Below are positions 9,795-16,734 of a stretch of 64,000 bases of DNA, in pieces. The translations under genes were made by a program, and so were the position numbers. Below the pieces are notes generated by a model, which saw nothing but the letters and a program-made list of their open reading frames with translations, searched no databases and was not told the origin of the DNA. Every line of letters starts with the position of its first letter. Position 1 is the stretch's first letter. The stretch is taken from the NCBI GenBank assembly GCA_030550015.1, contig JAUQQG010000046.1:1-64000 (forward strand), written 5' to 3'. This DNA is from a bacterium (GTDB lineage Bacteria; Sysuimicrobiota; Sysuimicrobiia; Sysuimicrobiales; Thermofontiviventaceae).

Positions 9795-9807
9795 CCAGGT
9801 GGCGTTC

Positions 9808-11457
9808 ATGCCTAGGGCTCCTGTGAAAGTTTTGAAAGAGCAGCTGGCGCGTAAGTCCGCGGAACTCAGCGCCCTGCGAGAGATCAGCCGGGCGATCAGT
9901 TCTGCGCTGGACCTGGATACCACCCTCACCCTCATCACCCGGAAGACCGCCGAGGTGATGGGGATGGACTCCTGCTCTATCTACCTGCTGGACCCCCAGG
10001 GGGAGTATCTTGTATTGCGTGCAACCACCGGGCTCGCTCCTGAAGCCATTGGCCGCGCACGCCTCCGTTACGGAGAGGGCCTTACGGGGTGGGCTGCGAA
10101 AGAAGGGAAGCCCGTCGCTAGTAGCGACGCCGCCAGCGATCCCAGGTTTGTCTACCTCCCGGAGACCCAGGAGTATCATTTCAAATCCCTCCTAGCAGTT
10201 CCCCTGATCACGGGAGGGAAGGTCCTCGGGGCCATCAACGTCCAGACGACAGCATTCCACGAATATACGGAGGAAGAGGTTGAACTCCTCTCTCTCATCG
10301 CCGATATGGCCTCTGGGGCGCTGGAGAAGGCCATCCTGTACGACAACATGCGGCGTCAAATCATGGAGCTCTCCACCCTTGCGGAGATCAGTAAGACCCT
10401 TACCTCTCCGCTGTACCTAGAGGATGTCTTGAAGCTGATCATGGAGATGGCTGCGCAGATGCTCAATGCGAGGCTCTGCTCCCTCATGCTTCTGGACGAG
10501 GAGAAGGGAGAGCTTGTCCTCACGGTGAGCCAGAATGCCTCAGAGCCGTACCGGAACCGACCAAACCTAAAGGTCGGCGAGGGGATCGCGGGCCTCGCTG
10601 CTCAGACGGCGAAACCCATTGCCGTTTACGATGTCCTGGAAGACCCGCGGTTTGTGTCCAAGGAGATGGCCACCCAGGAAGGGCTCCGTGCGCTCCTTGC
10701 TGTCCCTCTGATCGTGCGGGACCACGTGATCGGCGTGTTCAATTGTTACAAAGAACACCCTCACCACTTCACAGAGGAAGAGATTCGGCTTGCCTCGACC
10801 CTAGCGAACCAGATGGCCTTAGCCATTGAAAACGCCAACCTTGTGGTCAAATCGGCGGTTGTGCGCGAGATGCACCACCGGGTAAAGAACAACCTCCAGA
10901 CCATCGCCATGCTCCTCCGCCTTCAGATGCGCGATGGAAGGGACGTTTCAGGGCGGGAAGTTCTTGTGGAAACGATTAACCGCATTCTCAGCATCGCGGC
11001 GGTCCATGAGATCCTCTCGGTAGAAGGGTTCAAGTTCATCAACATCCGGGAGATGCTGGAGAAGGTCGCCCGCACCGTTGCCCAGAACATGGCCCGCCCG
11101 GACCTGGAATTGCAGATCTCCGTAAGTGGGGACGATGTGTACCTCCCCTCGCAGCAGGCCAGCTCCCTCGCGCTGGTGATCAACGAGCTCATTCAGAACG
11201 CCATTGAGCACGCCTTCAAGGAGCAGGCCAAAGGGAACGTGACGGTCACCCTGACGACACGCGGAGACCGCCTGCTGGTCGAAGTGAGGGACGATGGCGT
11301 GGGACTCCCAATTGGGTTTGATCCGGCTACGGGAAGCGACCTTGGGTTGCAGATTGTGAAGGCGCTTGTGGCAGAGGATCTGAAGGGAGAGTTCATACTG
11401 GAGCGGTGTGACCCGGGGACGAAAGCAACCATTACCCTCCCCAAGCCCAGCTTGTAA
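9808..11457 (+). CDS. GAF-GAF-HisKA_2 sensor histidine kinase (PdtaS-like)
   Basis: A 549-residue cytoplasmic sensor kinase. A short coiled coil is followed by two GAF domains (about 25-175 and 190-345), then a HisKA_2 domain with EMHHRVKNNLQ holding the phospho-accepting His (356/357), and a HATPase_c domain (INELIQNAIEHAF, DDGVGLP). No membrane segment is seen, so it should sense an internal ligand or redox signal. This architecture with an adjacent ANTAR regulator matches PdtaS-PdtaR. The ATG at 9808 has AGGTGG seven bases upstream; a GTG at 9799 is the alternative. Confidence 0.88.
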   Translation: MPRAPVKVLKEQLARKSAELSALREISRAISSALDLDTTLTLITRKTAEVMGMDSCSIYLLDPQGEYLVLRATTGLAPEAIGRARLRYGEGLTGWAAKEGKPVASSDAASDPRFVYLPETQEYHFKSLLAVPLITGGKVLGAINVQTTAFHEYTEEEVELLSLIADMASGALEKAILYDNMRRQIMELSTLAEISKTLTSPLYLEDVLKLIMEMAAQMLNARLCSLMLLDEEKGELVLTVSQNASEPYRNRPNLKVGEGIAGLAAQTAKPIAVYDVLEDPRFVSKEMATQEGLRALLAVPLIVRDHVIGVFNCYKEHPHHFTEEEIRLASTLANQMALAIENANLVVKSAVVREMHHRVKNNLQTIAMLLRLQMRDGRDVSGREVLVETINRILSIAAVHEILSVEGFKFINIREMLEKVARTVAQNMARPDLELQISVSGDDVYLPSQQASSLALVINELIQNAIEHAFKEQAKGNVTVTLTTRGDRLLVEVRDDGVGLPIGFDPATGSDLGLQIVKALVAEDLKGEFILERCDPGTKATITLPKPSL

Positions 11458-11524
11458 GCAGCCCCAATTCTGCTGGAGGTGCCCGCCAAGAGGCAAAAAG
11501 ACTTTTGCCGGAGTGATCTAGGCC

Positions 11525-12100
11525 ATGACGACGTTGCGTGTTCTCATCGTAGACGACGAGGCGATCATCCGGATGGGCCTCCGGGCAATGCTCGAGGAGA
11601 AGGGATATCAGGTTGTTGGGGAAGCCGGGGATGGGAGTAGAGCTGTCGAGCTAGCGCGACTCCTCAAACCCGATCTCATCTTTCTCGACATCAAGATGCC
11701 AGGGATGGACGGGATCGAGACGGCTGCTACCATCATGCAAGACCGGCCCACGCCCATTATCCTCCTGACCGCCTACAGTGACCGAAACTTGATCAACCGG
11801 GCGAAGGAAGCAGGAGTGCTGGCCTACCTGATGAAACCCTTCAAGGAAGCAGATCTGGTTCCCACCATTGAGATCGCGCTCGCCCGCTTCCAGGAGATCC
11901 AGGCGTTGCGTCGGGAGGTTGGGGACCTCAAGGAAACCCTGGAAACACGCAAACTGGTGGAGCGAGCGAAGGGAATCCTCATGAAGCGCTACGGGCTCAG
12001 CGAGGAGGAGGCCTTCCAGCGCATCCAGCGCCAGAGCCGCAACCTCCGCAAACCCATGAAGGAGATCGCCGAGGCCATCATCCTTGCCGAAGAGATTTAA
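11525..12100 (+). CDS. ANTAR-domain response regulator (PdtaR-like)
   Basis: A 191-residue response regulator. The receiver domain has the acidic pocket VDDE (9-12), phospho-acceptor Asp55 (FLDIKMPG) and Lys in LMKPF. A helical linker leads to the C-terminal ANTAR domain (about 140-191), an RNA-binding module that normally prevents transcription termination by binding paired hexaloop hairpins. It lies 67 bp after the kinase gene in the same orientation, so the kinase is the likely partner. RNA targets cannot be assigned from this window. Confidence 0.9.
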   Translation: MTTLRVLIVDDEAIIRMGLRAMLEEKGYQVVGEAGDGSRAVELARLLKPDLIFLDIKMPGMDGIETAATIMQDRPTPIILLTAYSDRNLINRAKEAGVLAYLMKPFKEADLVPTIEIALARFQEIQALRREVGDLKETLETRKLVERAKGILMKRYGLSEEEAFQRIQRQSRNLRKPMKEIAEAIILAEEI

Positions 12101-12192: not shown

Positions 12193-12558
12193 CTACCTCC
12201 CTTGCCCCCCAGCGATGGCGCCGACGATGCGCAGGGGTTCTTTGCCAGAGATCACCTCAGGAGGGAGCGGCGCAGTGGGCCCTCGTGGGGTGAGGTCGTA
12301 CTTTCCTGCGAAGAAGCGGAGGTATACGCGCAACCTTAGGATGGCTTTCTCGTCCGAGATGGGGATGGTTTCGTAGAACACGCCCTTGAGAGGTGGATAA
12401 ATCTGTTCTAGCGCATCCAGGACGTCACCCAGGCTGACTGGTGCGTGGGCCGAAGAGTCCCCCCGGTCTATTTTTATCGGTACCACAGGAGCAGAGATCC
12501 CCGCCAGCCGGCGGAGGTGACCTGGTAAGACCACATGCACCAATACGGAGTTTCCCAT
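12193..12558 (-). CDS. MoaD/ThiS-like ubiquitin-fold protein
   Basis: A 121-residue beta-grasp protein whose C-terminus reads AIAGGQGR, close to the xxxGG tail of MoaD/ThiS sulfur carriers but with three extra residues after the double glycine. LRRLAG, SLGDVLDAL and KAILRLRVYL segments fit the MoaD/ThiS fold. It starts 2 bp after the stop of the BNR-propeller gene, so the two are translationally coupled. Such pairs occur in other bacteria but their role is unclear. Carrier function would need trimming after Gly118; without it the protein may not be adenylated. No MoaE, MoeB or ThiF partner is visible here. Confidence 0.75.
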   Translation of the reverse strand: MGNSVLVHVVLPGHLRRLAGISAPVVPIKIDRGDSSAHAPVSLGDVLDALEQIYPPLKGVFYETIPISDEKAILRLRVYLRFFAGKYDLTPRGPTAPLPPEVISGKEPLRIVGAIAGGQGR

Positions 12559-12560
12559 TG

Positions 12561-13679
12561 CTATGGCAATGTCTGTGCCTCGACCGAAAACACCGCCGGG
12601 AGATCTTTCACCAGCGCCTTCCAAGTGTCGCCAGAATCCCGTGAAGCATAGATCTGCCCTCCAGTTGTGCCGAAGTAGATTCCGCATGGTTCCATCTGGT
12701 CCACAGCCATAGCGTCGCGCAGAACGTTCACGTAGCAGTGCCGGTCGGGCAGGCCCTTTCCAAGCGACTCCCAAGTACCGCCCCCGTCTCTACTACGCCA
12801 GACCCTGAGTGCCCCATCAATGGGATAACGGCGCTCATCGCTTGTCATGGGCACGATGTAGACGGTATCAGGGTCATGGGCGTGCACGGCGATGGGAAAA
12901 CCAAAGTTTGACGGTAGGCCTTCGCTTATATCCTTCCACATCTCGCCTGCGTTATCGCTGCGATAAACTCCACCATGTTTCTGCATGAACAGGACATGGG
13001 GCCTAGCGGGGTGCAGCGCCATCTTGTGCACGCAGAATCCTGCCTCCGGCTCAGGATCGGGCGTGTAGGTGGCACGAAGGCCGCGATGGATGGGGCGCCA
13101 CGTATGCCCGGTATCGTCGGAGCGGAAGGCGCCGGCGGCGGAGATGGCAACATACAAACGATGAGGGTCCACAGGGTCGGTCAGGATGGTGTGCAAGCAC
13201 AGCCCACCCGCCCCCGGCGTCCACAGGTGATTGGTGGGGTGTTGTCGCAGGCTTGGGATCTCTTCCCAACGTGCGCCGCCATCGAAAGAATGGAACAGCG
13301 CGGCATCCTCAACACCCGCCAGCACCTTTTCTCCTGCGTCGCCTGGCAGGGGTGCCAGGTGCCATACTTTCCTGAACACCCACGGTGTATTTTCGCCGCC
13401 TAGGTCTTTGTGTGAAGTGAGCGGAGGTTGGTAAAGAAATTGGTTGCTCACGGTCTGCCACGTGCGGCCGCCATCCGTGCTGCGTTGGATAACCGTACCC
13501 GACCACGAGGTCCACAGGGAAGCGTAGAGACGGTCAGGGTCACTCGGGGAGGCCTGCATATGGAAGACCTGCCATCCCTCAAACAGCGGACCGGAGACCC
13601 TCCATCGCCGCCGATCAGCGCTTGAGGTGAGGATGAAGCCTCCCTTGCAGGTTCCGACCAATACGCGAATCCTCTGCAT
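12561..13679 (-). CDS. BNR/sialidase-fold beta-propeller protein
   Basis: A 372-residue beta-propeller with repeated Asp-box (BNR) motifs of the S-D-G-G-x-T-W type, as in sialidases and VPS10/photosystem-stability-factor proteins: STDGGRTW near residue 63, [24 protein letters not shown] and SRDSGDTW. No signal peptide is seen and the catalytic residues of true sialidases were not identified, so a binding or scaffold role is as likely as hydrolysis. The start at 13679 has GGGAGG upstream. It is first in a two-gene operon with the MoaD-like gene, behind a CTAG-centred inverted repeat. Confidence 0.78.
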
Positions 13680-13818: not shown

Positions 13819-14619
13819 CTACAGTACGCGACGGGCGAATGCGAGGAGGGCAAAAAGAACGAGGGCCGATAGGACGATAGCCCCACCTGCGGCAAGGTCC
13901 AGGTAGTAGGAGAGGAGGAGCCCCACGATCACGGAACTGACTGAGTGGAGGATGGCAATCCCAAGGGCCTGGCGAAAGTTCCGCGCCACTTGGATTCCCA
14001 CGACAGTAGGGATCACGAGGAGGGCACTGATCAACAGAACGCCCACCAACCGCATCCCTATGACCACTGTGAGCGCAGTGAGCACGGAAAGCAGGAGGTT
14101 GATGGAGTCCACAGGGATCCCGCTGATGCGGGCTGTCTCTTCGTTGAAGGTGATCGCGAACAACTCCCTGTACAGGAGCAGGACAGAGAGGGCGATAGTC
14201 CCTCCGAGGGCTAGGGCGAGCCAGAGATCGGCAGGTGTGACAGTGGTGATACTCCCGAAGAGATAGCCGAAAAGCCCCACGGTGAACCCACGGCCAAGGC
14301 TGATGAGAACCGTGGCCACAGCAAGGCCCCCTGATAGGAACAGGGCCAGGGCTACCTCACCGGGGAGGCGACCGGTGGCCCGCAGGCGGTCGATCCCCAT
14401 CGCTCCGAGCACCGCAACGAGGAGGGCGGCTAGCACAGGGTTGACACCCACGAGCAAACCCACCGCAACACCTGCAAGGGCAACGTGGGCGAGGGTATCG
14501 GCAATGAGGGAAAGGCGACGCAGGACAAGGAAGATACCAATCATGGGGGCGATGGCAGCGATGATGATGCCAGCAAGGAAAGCCCTTTGCATAAAGCCAT
14601 ATTGGAGGAACTCCGGCAC
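13819..14619 (-). CDS. znuB: Zinc/metal ABC transporter permease (ABC-3 family)
   Basis: A 266-residue integral membrane protein with about eight hydrophobic helices and the ABC-3 family pattern (MIGIFLVLRRLSLIADTLAHVALAGVAVG, split over helices 1-2; GLFGYLFGSITTV). It forms the membrane channel for divalent metal uptake with the ATPase upstream and the binding protein before it. The start is GTG at 14619 behind AGAGGTGA. It is last of the zur-znuA-znuC-znuB operon. Manganese cannot be excluded as substrate, but the regulator and the binding-protein ligands favour zinc. Confidence 0.88.
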   Translation of the reverse strand: MPEFLQYGFMQRAFLAGIIIAAIAPMIGIFLVLRRLSLIADTLAHVALAGVAVGLLVGVNPVLAALLVAVLGAMGIDRLRATGRLPGEVALALFLSGGLAVATVLISLGRGFTVGLFGYLFGSITTVTPADLWLALALGGTIALSVLLLYRELFAITFNEETARISGIPVDSINLLLSVLTALTVVIGMRLVGVLLISALLVIPTVVGIQVARNFRQALGIAILHSVSSVIVGLLLSYYLDLAAGGAIVLSALVLFALLAFARRVL

Positions 14620-14664
14620 GCAATCACCTCTTCTACCGCTTTGGCCGGTTCATTCGACAACCTG

Positions 14665-15414
14665 TCAATGCGTGTGGGAAACGATCCGAACCCCTGGTCG
14701 ATATACCTTCGCCAGCGCCTCGCTCTCCAAGAAATCCTCAGGGCATCCGTGGTAGATCAGCTGCCGGTTGAGGCAGGCAAGTTTGGCGACCTCGGATGCG
14801 ATCACTCCCACGTCGTGTGTCACAAGGACCAGGGTTGTCCCCTGCTCGCGATTCAAGCGATGGAGGAGGCGATAGAACTGTTCCTGGGAAGGTGCATCCA
14901 CCCCCACCAGTGGCTCGTCCAGAACGATCAAGTCGGGATGATTCACGAGAGCGCGTGCGATGAGCACACGTTGTTGCTGGCCTAAAGAGAGGTGGCCAAT
15001 GCGGCGGTTCCGCTCGTCGAGCAATCCCAAGAGCTCCAGGACATGCTCAACAGCCTCCCGGTCCGCCTGGGTGAACAACCGCCCCACCCCCTGACGGCTC
15101 ACCCGGCCGCTCGCCACGACCTCCTCCACGGTGGCCGGAAAACGTGGGTCGAAAGCTGTTCCCTGGGGAAGATAACCGATGCGCCACCACTCCTGGAACC
15201 TGGACACATCGGTGCCGAACAAGCGAACAGTCCCGCACGAAGGGCGCAGGAGCCCTAGCATGACTTTGAGGAGGGTTGTCTTTCCTGCCCCGTTCGGCCC
15301 GATGATCCCGAGGAAGTCCCCTTCCTCTATAGTCAGGGTGACGTCGTCGAGGACCCGTTCCCCGTCGTATTCGTAGCAAACACCCGCGAGCTCCACCACA
15401 GGCCTTGCGCTCAT
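14665..15414 (-). CDS. znuC: Zinc/metal ABC transporter ATP-binding protein
   Basis: A 249-residue ABC ATPase: Walker A GPNGAGKTT (39-47), Q-loop in GYLPQ, signature LSLGQQQR (Leu in place of the usual third-position Gly) and Walker B LIVLDEP, then the H-loop His in LVTHD. It energises metal import with the ABC-3 permease. It overlaps the end of znuA by 4 bp (ATGA), indicating translational coupling. Two His residues at the extreme C-terminus (VSHTH) could bind metal. Confidence 0.9.
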   Translation of the reverse strand: MSARPVVELAGVCYEYDGERVLDDVTLTIEEGDFLGIIGPNGAGKTTLLKVMLGLLRPSCGTVRLFGTDVSRFQEWWRIGYLPQGTAFDPRFPATVEEVVASGRVSRQGVGRLFTQADREAVEHVLELLGLLDERNRRIGHLSLGQQQRVLIARALVNHPDLIVLDEPLVGVDAPSQEQFYRLLHRLNREQGTTLVLVTHDVGVIASEVAKLACLNRQLIYHGCPEDFLESEALAKVYRPGVRIVSHTH

Positions 15415-16313
15415 GGTTCACACCCCAGGGCTTCTCGCAGTACCGCGAGGTTCTTCTTCATGATGGTCAGATAACTCTCCCCCCGCGCTTCTTCCTCCAG
15501 AGTGAGCCCCTCAAGAGGGTTGAACCGCAGGACCTTCGCTCCCACCTCCCTGGCCAGGACCTCGGCAGCCCGCAGGCTTACAAGCGTCTCGGTGAGGACC
15601 GCGCGAACGCGCATCTTCCGTGCGAGACCGACGAGTTCCTTCATGCGCGCTGGGGATGGCTCACCTTCGGGGGAGAAGCCTCCGATGGCGATTGCCTGGA
15701 AACCATAGCGCCTGGCCAGATAGTCCAGGAACGCATGGGTCGTCAGAACGGCACGGATTCGGCAGCTACGGAGGGAATTTCGGTATGCACTGTCCAGATT
15801 CCGCAGCTGCCGCGCGTAGCTCTCCTTGTTTGCTTCATACTGCTCCCTTCCAAGTGGATCGATCTGATTGAGGGCGGCGGCGATCTTCTGCACCATCTCC
15901 TGGGCGAGGAGTGGATCGAGCCAGACGTGGGGGTCCAGTTGCCCATCCGCTTTGCGGGAAAGGGGGAGGCCATCTGTCGCATTGAGTACCTTCGATCGGG
16001 GGAGTGTAGCGGCGAGCCGCTCCGCCCACGGATCGAGCCCCATCCCGTGGTAGATGAAGAGCGCTGCCCTGCGCACCTCTGCGACGGCCCGGGGAGAAGG
16101 CTCCCACTCATGCGGCTCGCCCCCTGCAGGGATGAGCGTGGTGACTTCCACGCGTTCCCCGCCAACGGCGCGCGCAAACTCCCCGAGAACATAGAAGCTC
16201 GCCGCGACCGGGATCCTTCCCCCATCGCGGATGGGAGGTCTCGCGCGCAGGGGCAGGATGAAGAGCGCGGCCGCGACAAGGCTGACGAGGACTAAAATGA
16301 AAATCATTCTCAT
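15411..16313 (-). CDS. znuA: Zinc/metal ABC transporter substrate-binding protein
   Basis: A 300-residue cluster A-I binding protein. A hydrophobic segment (4-22) without a lipobox Cys is a signal peptide or membrane anchor. Predicted metal ligands are His68 (GGEPHEWEP), His129 (DPHVWLDP), His193 (TTHAFLDY) and Glu242. The His-rich loop of Gram-negative ZnuA is missing. The ATG at 16313 has AAGGATAAACTG upstream, a Shine-Dalgarno lying within the last codons of zur, so the genes are coupled; ATG 16307 is an alternative. Confidence 0.87.
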   Translation of the reverse strand: MRMIFILVLVSLVAAALFILPLRARPPIRDGGRIPVAASFYVLGEFARAVGGERVEVTTLIPAGGEPHEWEPSPRAVAEVRRAALFIYHGMGLDPWAERLAATLPRSKVLNATDGLPLSRKADGQLDPHVWLDPLLAQEMVQKIAAALNQIDPLGREQYEANKESYARQLRNLDSAYRNSLRSCRIRAVLTTHAFLDYLARRYGFQAIAIGGFSPEGEPSPARMKELVGLARKMRVRAVLTETLVSLRAAEVLAREVGAKVLRFNPLEGLTLEEEARGESYLTIMKKNLAVLREALGCEP

Positions 16314-16317
16314 CAGT

Positions 16318-16734
16318 TTATCCTTCCTGGCAGTCACGGCAGCGCCCGTAGAGCTCCAGCCGGTGCCCGAGGATCTGGAACCCGTTGCGCACGAGAGTCG
16401 CCCCCTCAAACGGGCTCAGGAAGCATCCCTCTACTGGCTCTACCTTCCCGCAGACCTGGCAGATGAGGTGGTGGTGGTGTGTCTCCAAAATAGGCTCGTA
16501 CCGGACTTTGCCGTCCCCGAGGTAAATCTCTTGAACCTTCCGGGCGTGCTTAAGCAACTCAAGGGTCCGATACACAGTGGTCAACCCTAAGGAAGGGAGC
16601 CACTGTTTGGCTCTCTCATGGATCTCCTCCACGGATTGCGTGCACGCACCCTCATAGATTGCCCGGAGGACAGCTTCACGCTGAGAGGTCAGGCGATACC
16701 CTCGTATCTTGAGCTCTTGCCGGAGTTCATCCAT
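16318..16734 (-). CDS. zur: Fur-family metalloregulator, probably Zur
   Basis: A 138-residue repressor with an N-terminal winged helix (RLTSQREAVLRAIY, TTVYRTLELL), the metal-sensing HHHH cluster (THHHHLICQVCG) and two CxxC pairs (CQVC, CRDC) for structural zinc. Being first in an operon with a zinc-type ABC transporter suggests it senses zinc and represses its own operon. The 7-1-7 box 14 bp upstream of the ATG supports autoregulation. No Shine-Dalgarno precedes the ATG. Confidence 0.85.
   Translation of the reverse strand: MDELRQELKIRGYRLTSQREAVLRAIYEGACTQSVEEIHERAKQWLPSLGLTTVYRTLELLKHARKVQEIYLGDGKVRYEPILETHHHHLICQVCGKVEPVEGCFLSPFEGATLVRNGFQILGHRLELYGRCRDCQEG

Follow-up and report, generated by a model that had tools for sequence, protein, structure and literature searches.

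What does a MoaD-like small protein with a C-terminal Gly-Gly (GG) do beside a BNR beta-propeller, and are the three residues that follow its GG a property of the system? Most of what is known about bacterial relatives of ubiquitin comes from a few biosynthetic pathways, and a GG-tailed protein that keeps one conserved partner across many phyla provides a test of the boundary between sulfur carriage and protein tagging. The window (the whole stretch of 64,000 nucleotides analysed here) contains such a pair, with the following features.

12561-13679, minus strand: BNR (Asp-box) beta-propeller, 372 aa, with matches to BNR, Sortilin-Vps10 and PSII_BNR in Pfam
12556-12563, minus strand: junction, consisting of the propeller stop codon (12561-12563), a 2-nt spacer and the small-protein start codon (12556-12558)
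12193-12558, minus strand: small protein (P0001), 121 aa, predicted MoaD/SAMP1-like beta-grasp; ATG at 12558, stop codon 12193-12195
12205-12210, minus strand: codons of Gly117-Gly118 (GG), invariant in 77 of 77 aligned partners
12196-12204, minus strand: codons of the Gln-Gly-Arg (QGR) extension after GG, not present in 73 of 76 homologues

The small protein and the propeller

The propeller gene is located upstream of the small gene on the same strand, with a gap of 2 nt. Translation of 12193-12558 on the minus strand yielded a 121-aa protein ending with EPLRIVGAIAGGQGR* (GAIAGG-QGR), in agreement with the coordinates, strand and AIAGGQGR tail reported in a preliminary description of this DNA. 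The small protein did not generate hits at E 0.1 in Pfam or NCBIfam, including the ThiS/MoaD model PF02597, which did match the carriers of more distantly related pairs of this type (G013:C24 and G035:C44), and a contig search with its sequence alone gave no match. The AlphaFold2 model, generated with an alignment of database homologues as input, had a pLDDT of 86.9, with values below 50 in the tail (residues 117-121). Its best Foldseek matches were 2l52 (E 3.8e-5) and 3po0 (E 9.5e-5), SAMP1 of Methanosarcina and Haloferax, followed by CysO, Urm1 and MoaD of the mycobacterial and human molybdopterin synthases. In this model, the small protein is predicted to have the beta-grasp fold of MoaD/ThiS carriers. 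Residue 85 (12304-12306, minus strand) is Gly, and the corresponding residue is Cys in 73 of 76 homologues.

PDB entry 3b7f matched residues 4-368 of the propeller in a sequence search (E 1.2e-72), and the AlphaFold2 model of the propeller (pLDDT 91.3) showed TM scores of 0.88/0.89 to 3b7f in Foldseek, xyloglucanases and sortilin being much weaker fold matches. The propeller belongs, by full-length sequence and by fold, to the 3b7f-type BNR propeller family. By inspection, no signal peptide was evident in either protein. The pair is publicly annotated as 'MoaD/ThiS family protein' and 'exo-alpha-sialidase', and the sialidase (GH33) or glycosyl hydrolase label carried by such propellers in databases is by name only.

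Upstream of the pair, a metal uptake operon encodes a Fur-family regulator, a ZnuA-like binding protein, an ATPase and a permease (13819-16734, minus strand). On its other side, a GAF-GAF-HisKA_2 sensor kinase is followed by an ANTAR response regulator (9799-12100, plus strand), a two-component pair of the antitermination type. The neighbours of the pair in the window are thus the ANTAR regulator and the Znu-type ABC transporter, with neither CysM nor JAMM beside it. A link of the pair to zinc was considered and rejected, as the Fur-ZnuA-ZnuC-ZnuB order on the same strand was kept in 0 of 19 related loci.

Conservation and genomic context of the pair

Both genes were present in the same 20 of 100 relatives and were always adjacent; the small protein was never found without a close propeller homologue. 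A scan of a database with one genome per species (84,980 species) detected at least 80 propeller loci. The small gene was downstream in all 77 listed loci with sequence remaining, the other three of the 80 ending less than about 300 bases past the propeller, and the stop and start codons overlapped as ATGA in 60 of the 77. The listed loci are from Rokubacteria, Acidobacteria, Chloroflexi, Planctomycetes, Verrucomicrobia, Actinobacteria, Nitrospira, Gemmatimonadetes, Proteobacteria and others. Cultured strains in which the pair occurs include Edaphobacter aggregans DSM 19364 (L113), Acidipila rosea (L076) and Anaeromyxobacter oryzae (L115). In a domain-wide sample of 343 genomes outside the window's order, 30 genomes carried the propeller at 32 loci, and 26 of these loci were paired with a carrier. 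The propeller mostly came first; five loci were carrier first, an order also seen in Pseudomonas, Burkholderia, Mitsuaria and Cupriavidus, and one was convergent, so that adjacency persists through three gene orders. Pairwise distances of the two proteins co-varied (Mantel r 0.57, 0 of 2000 permutations), and no match to the pair was found in phages. The carrier and the propeller are an old and real conserved two-gene unit, and the tight coupling noticed in the window recurs in 20 of 20 relatives having the small protein and in 77 of 77 listed loci.

Carrier-less propellers also exist: 6 of the 32 domain-wide loci and eight more distant ones, and copies in Rhodobacterales and Streptomyces likewise have no adjacent carrier. 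H163, H218, Q233, H235 and R321 are invariant in carrier-linked and carrier-less copies alike, and comparison of linked with unlinked copies revealed no carrier-specific propeller residues. The retention of these residues in carrier-less copies indicates that the propeller can function without a carrier linked to it. K12 does not vary among close propellers and hardly varies among distant ones. One carrier-less propeller, in Rhodobacter, adjoins the ergothioneine genes egtB/egtD (L054:1589-5116).

In about 20 of 111 listed loci, across phyla, the pair was flanked by ECF sigma factor (DUF6596), YCII, VOC and SRPBCC genes, often abutting. This recurrent ECF sigma (DUF6596)-YCII-SRPBCC/VOC-propeller-carrier module is found among loci L059-L138 and L160-L167 (for example, L075:2705-7821 and L167:4624-8275); YCII genes otherwise occur about once per megabase in related genomes. 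Judging from their domain make-up and the YCII neighbour, the flanking sigma factors probably belong to ECF42. ECF42 sigma factors with YCII neighbours were linked to oxidative and antibiotic stress in the parts consulted of PMC8999054, which contained no mention of a MoaD or BNR gene, and a paper on ECF sigma factors of S. meliloti (PMC6180224) names neither gene. The ECF42-YCII neighbours suggest a stress-related use of the pair.

C-terminal glycines, masked tails and the E1 and JAMM enzymes

GG was invariant in 76 complete listed homologues and exactly terminal in 73 of them; the remaining three ended with GGG, GGCD and GG plus 14 residues. Among the domain-wide pairs, 22 of 26 ended exactly with GG and four carried 1-4 extra residues. 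A homologue without GG, which the preliminary description had named as grounds for rejecting its interpretation, was found once, in the actinobacterial genus Nonomuraea (LPALA*), and every other partner examined kept GG. Extended tails were found in 7 of the 20 pairs in the window's order and in 3 of the 76 listed database homologues (Fisher p 0.0005, for sets that may overlap). On this distribution, the QGR mask is a local trait and not a feature of the family, and the blocked tail is not supported as a defining property of the pair; masking is mostly seen on the other carriers of the genome. Long or fused tails were present in L003, L004 and L017. In L017/L169 (G036:C49), one of the seven extended cases of the order, the carrier continues in frame past GG, which is thereby internal, into a hydrophobic protein (ORF L017:2673-3368, plus strand). 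The fusion partner, which has no Pfam match, looks DoxX-like and membrane-bound by inspection, and this carrier is either a processed polyprotein or the result of a lost stop codon.

Six of the seven other carriers in the window's genome are masked or fused (loci L146-L153). They are listed by contig below; the names ThiG and sulfite reductase come from reading of the sequence.

C42: CysO-like carrier, tail AMAGG-EPPVWSRE, masked
C26: carrier, tail IAGG-TILAL, masked
C50: carrier, tail LSGG-VVPKLVQKTRRLIC, masked
C66: MoaD-MoaE fusion
C6: fusion of ThiS with a putative ThiG
C56: putative sulfite-reductase-like protein fused with ThiS
C65: carrier ending with AMAGG, the sole exposed tail among the seven

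The CysO-like carriers of related genomes are also masked. These carriers bear on whether the small protein is an ordinary MoaD of molybdopterin synthase, as its fold resemblance to the MoaD of the mycobacterial and human enzymes might suggest. Such a role is disfavoured and highly improbable, given that the genome has a separate MoaD fused to MoaE, that the family never occurred without the propeller in 100 genomes, and that the ThiS/MoaD Pfam model was unmatched. The earlier statement that Mo-cofactor genes are lacking holds locally, for the part of the window scanned, but not for the genome, which carries the fusion on C66.

A search of the genome for an E1 and a JAMM protease, as proposed in the preliminary description, found one of each. 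The E1, encoded on contig C6, is a full ThiF(MoeB)-rhodanese protein with GxGGxG, two CxxC motifs and a rhodanese domain. The JAMM protease has an intact HxHx7Sx2D motif, and its gene adjoins those of PLP enzymes near the CysO-like carrier. Strong JAMM matches were obtained in 3 of 3 genomes with masked tails; among the 20 genomes in which the pair has an exposed tail, they were obtained in 8 and missing in 12, a difference that does not decide the matter (p 0.09). Pair-bearing genome G126 had no ThiF match, and G214 had only a weak one. In Deinococcus, DRJAMM cuts a MoaD-MoaE fusion and thereby exposes the Gly of MoaD (PMC8832034), and in Thermus a single E1, TtuC, serves several carriers (PMC3980101). 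With these two precedents, the masked carriers of the genome and its intact JAMM make trimming of QGR plausible, yet not special to the pair. The tail might instead reflect an assembly error or neutral drift without processing, in which case the protein may be inactive in this organism. The GGGGGG run within the tail codons and the Gly in place of the near-invariant Cys85 are consistent with such an origin, which nevertheless seems quite unlikely, as the excess of extended tails in the order (7 of 20 versus 3 of 76, p 0.0005, in possibly overlapping sets) and the masking of the genome's other carriers both speak against it.

Proposed role of the pair and comparison with known systems

We tentatively propose, with a probability of about 0.45, that the shared E1 activates the small protein as a GG-tailed carrier, for which the propeller is the dedicated acceptor or target. 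The first step in the window's genome would be removal of QGR, with the one good JAMM, encoded at the locus of the CysO-like carrier, as the most likely protease. The shared E1 (ThiF/MoeB plus rhodanese) would then adenylate the C-terminal Gly and convert it to a thiocarboxylate, on the model of TtuC in Thermus. The activated tail would finally come into contact with and be handed to the cytosolic BNR propeller as acceptor or effector, comparable to MoaE for MoaD and CysM for CysO. Activation of the glycine is favoured by the near-absolute terminal GG, the predicted carrier fold and the shared E1, and a receiving role of the propeller by the fixed partnership. Strict dependence is opposed by the carrier-less propellers with the same invariant residues, the one GG-less partner and the one pair-bearing genome without an E1 match.

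The same carrier could alternatively act as a SAMP/Urm1/TtuB-like modifier whose glycine is joined to target lysines; the propeller would then be an adaptor or the first protein to be modified. The best fold matches are archaeal modifiers (SAMP1), TtuB and Urm1 are both carrier and modifier, with TtuB becoming conjugated to the enzymes it partners (PMC3980101), a JAMM is present in the genome, and K12 would offer a nearly invariant lysine. Protein tagging is nonetheless rather unlikely: no E2/E3-like gene was seen recurring beside the pair, and 12 of 20 genomes lack a strong JAMM, the enzyme that a tagging system would be expected to use for deconjugation. Ranked below it, and unlikely as well, is a non-covalent association in which the small protein would serve the propeller as a structural or regulatory subunit, GG being retained for binding independently of any E1 reaction. 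This would accommodate the Nonomuraea partner, the tails of L003, L004 and L017, which are long or fused, the conservation of the propeller with or without a partner, and the pair-bearing genome without an E1 match, but if no carboxylate chemistry is involved, an exact terminal GG in 73 of 76 listed homologues has no easy explanation. Taken together, delivery of sulfur or an acyl group to the propeller is the most likely role, ahead of tagging and of a non-covalent subunit. The idea of a distinct sulfur-carrier or tagging unit is thus retained as a carrier-propeller unit far wider than the window, sulfur and tag not being separable by sequence. With less confidence than the main proposal, the pair may represent a widespread ubiquitin-like system in which a SAMP1-like modifier or sulfur donor has a cytosolic BNR propeller as acceptor, operates in ECF42 stress modules, and yields a sulfur product or tags proteins.

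No paper on the carrier-propeller pair was found in the literature searched, whose coverage mostly left out subscription journals, and Iyer et al. 2006 mention neither a propeller nor a sialidase. Carrier-acceptor and modifier systems are already known, and the propeller as partner is undescribed in that literature. The pair may offer the first functional handle on many 'exo-alpha-sialidase' proteins encoded beside a 'MoaD/ThiS family protein'.

The propeller is of the same family as 3b7f, which is Reut_B4987, a putative BNR glycosyl hydrolase of Ralstonia eutropha; that entry contains a propeller without a carrier, and the word 'putative' is in its title. We know of no established function for this protein. 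ECF42-YCII modules house the pair in about 20 of 111 listed loci, whereas the window's own genome has no YCII gene. SAMP1 of Haloferax and Methanosarcina and Urm1/TtuB resemble the pair in beta-grasp fold, GG tail, an E1 shared with sulfur-carrier pathways and a JAMM in the genome; the small protein differs in its identity of 24% or less in structural alignment and in a gene tied to a propeller. The MoaD-MoaE molybdopterin synthase shares the MoaD-like fold, GG and the carrier-acceptor logic, but the pair has no adjacent Moco gene or MoaE, the MoaE of the genome being fused to its separate MoaD. CysO-CysM-Mec+ and other JAMM-linked masked-GG carriers are alike in placing a carrier beside its acceptor and in their masked tails, and a locus of the CysO type, with PALP-family CysM-like enzymes and the JAMM, exists at C42 in the window's genome; the acceptor of the pair, in contrast, would be a propeller, with neither JAMM nor CysM adjacent.
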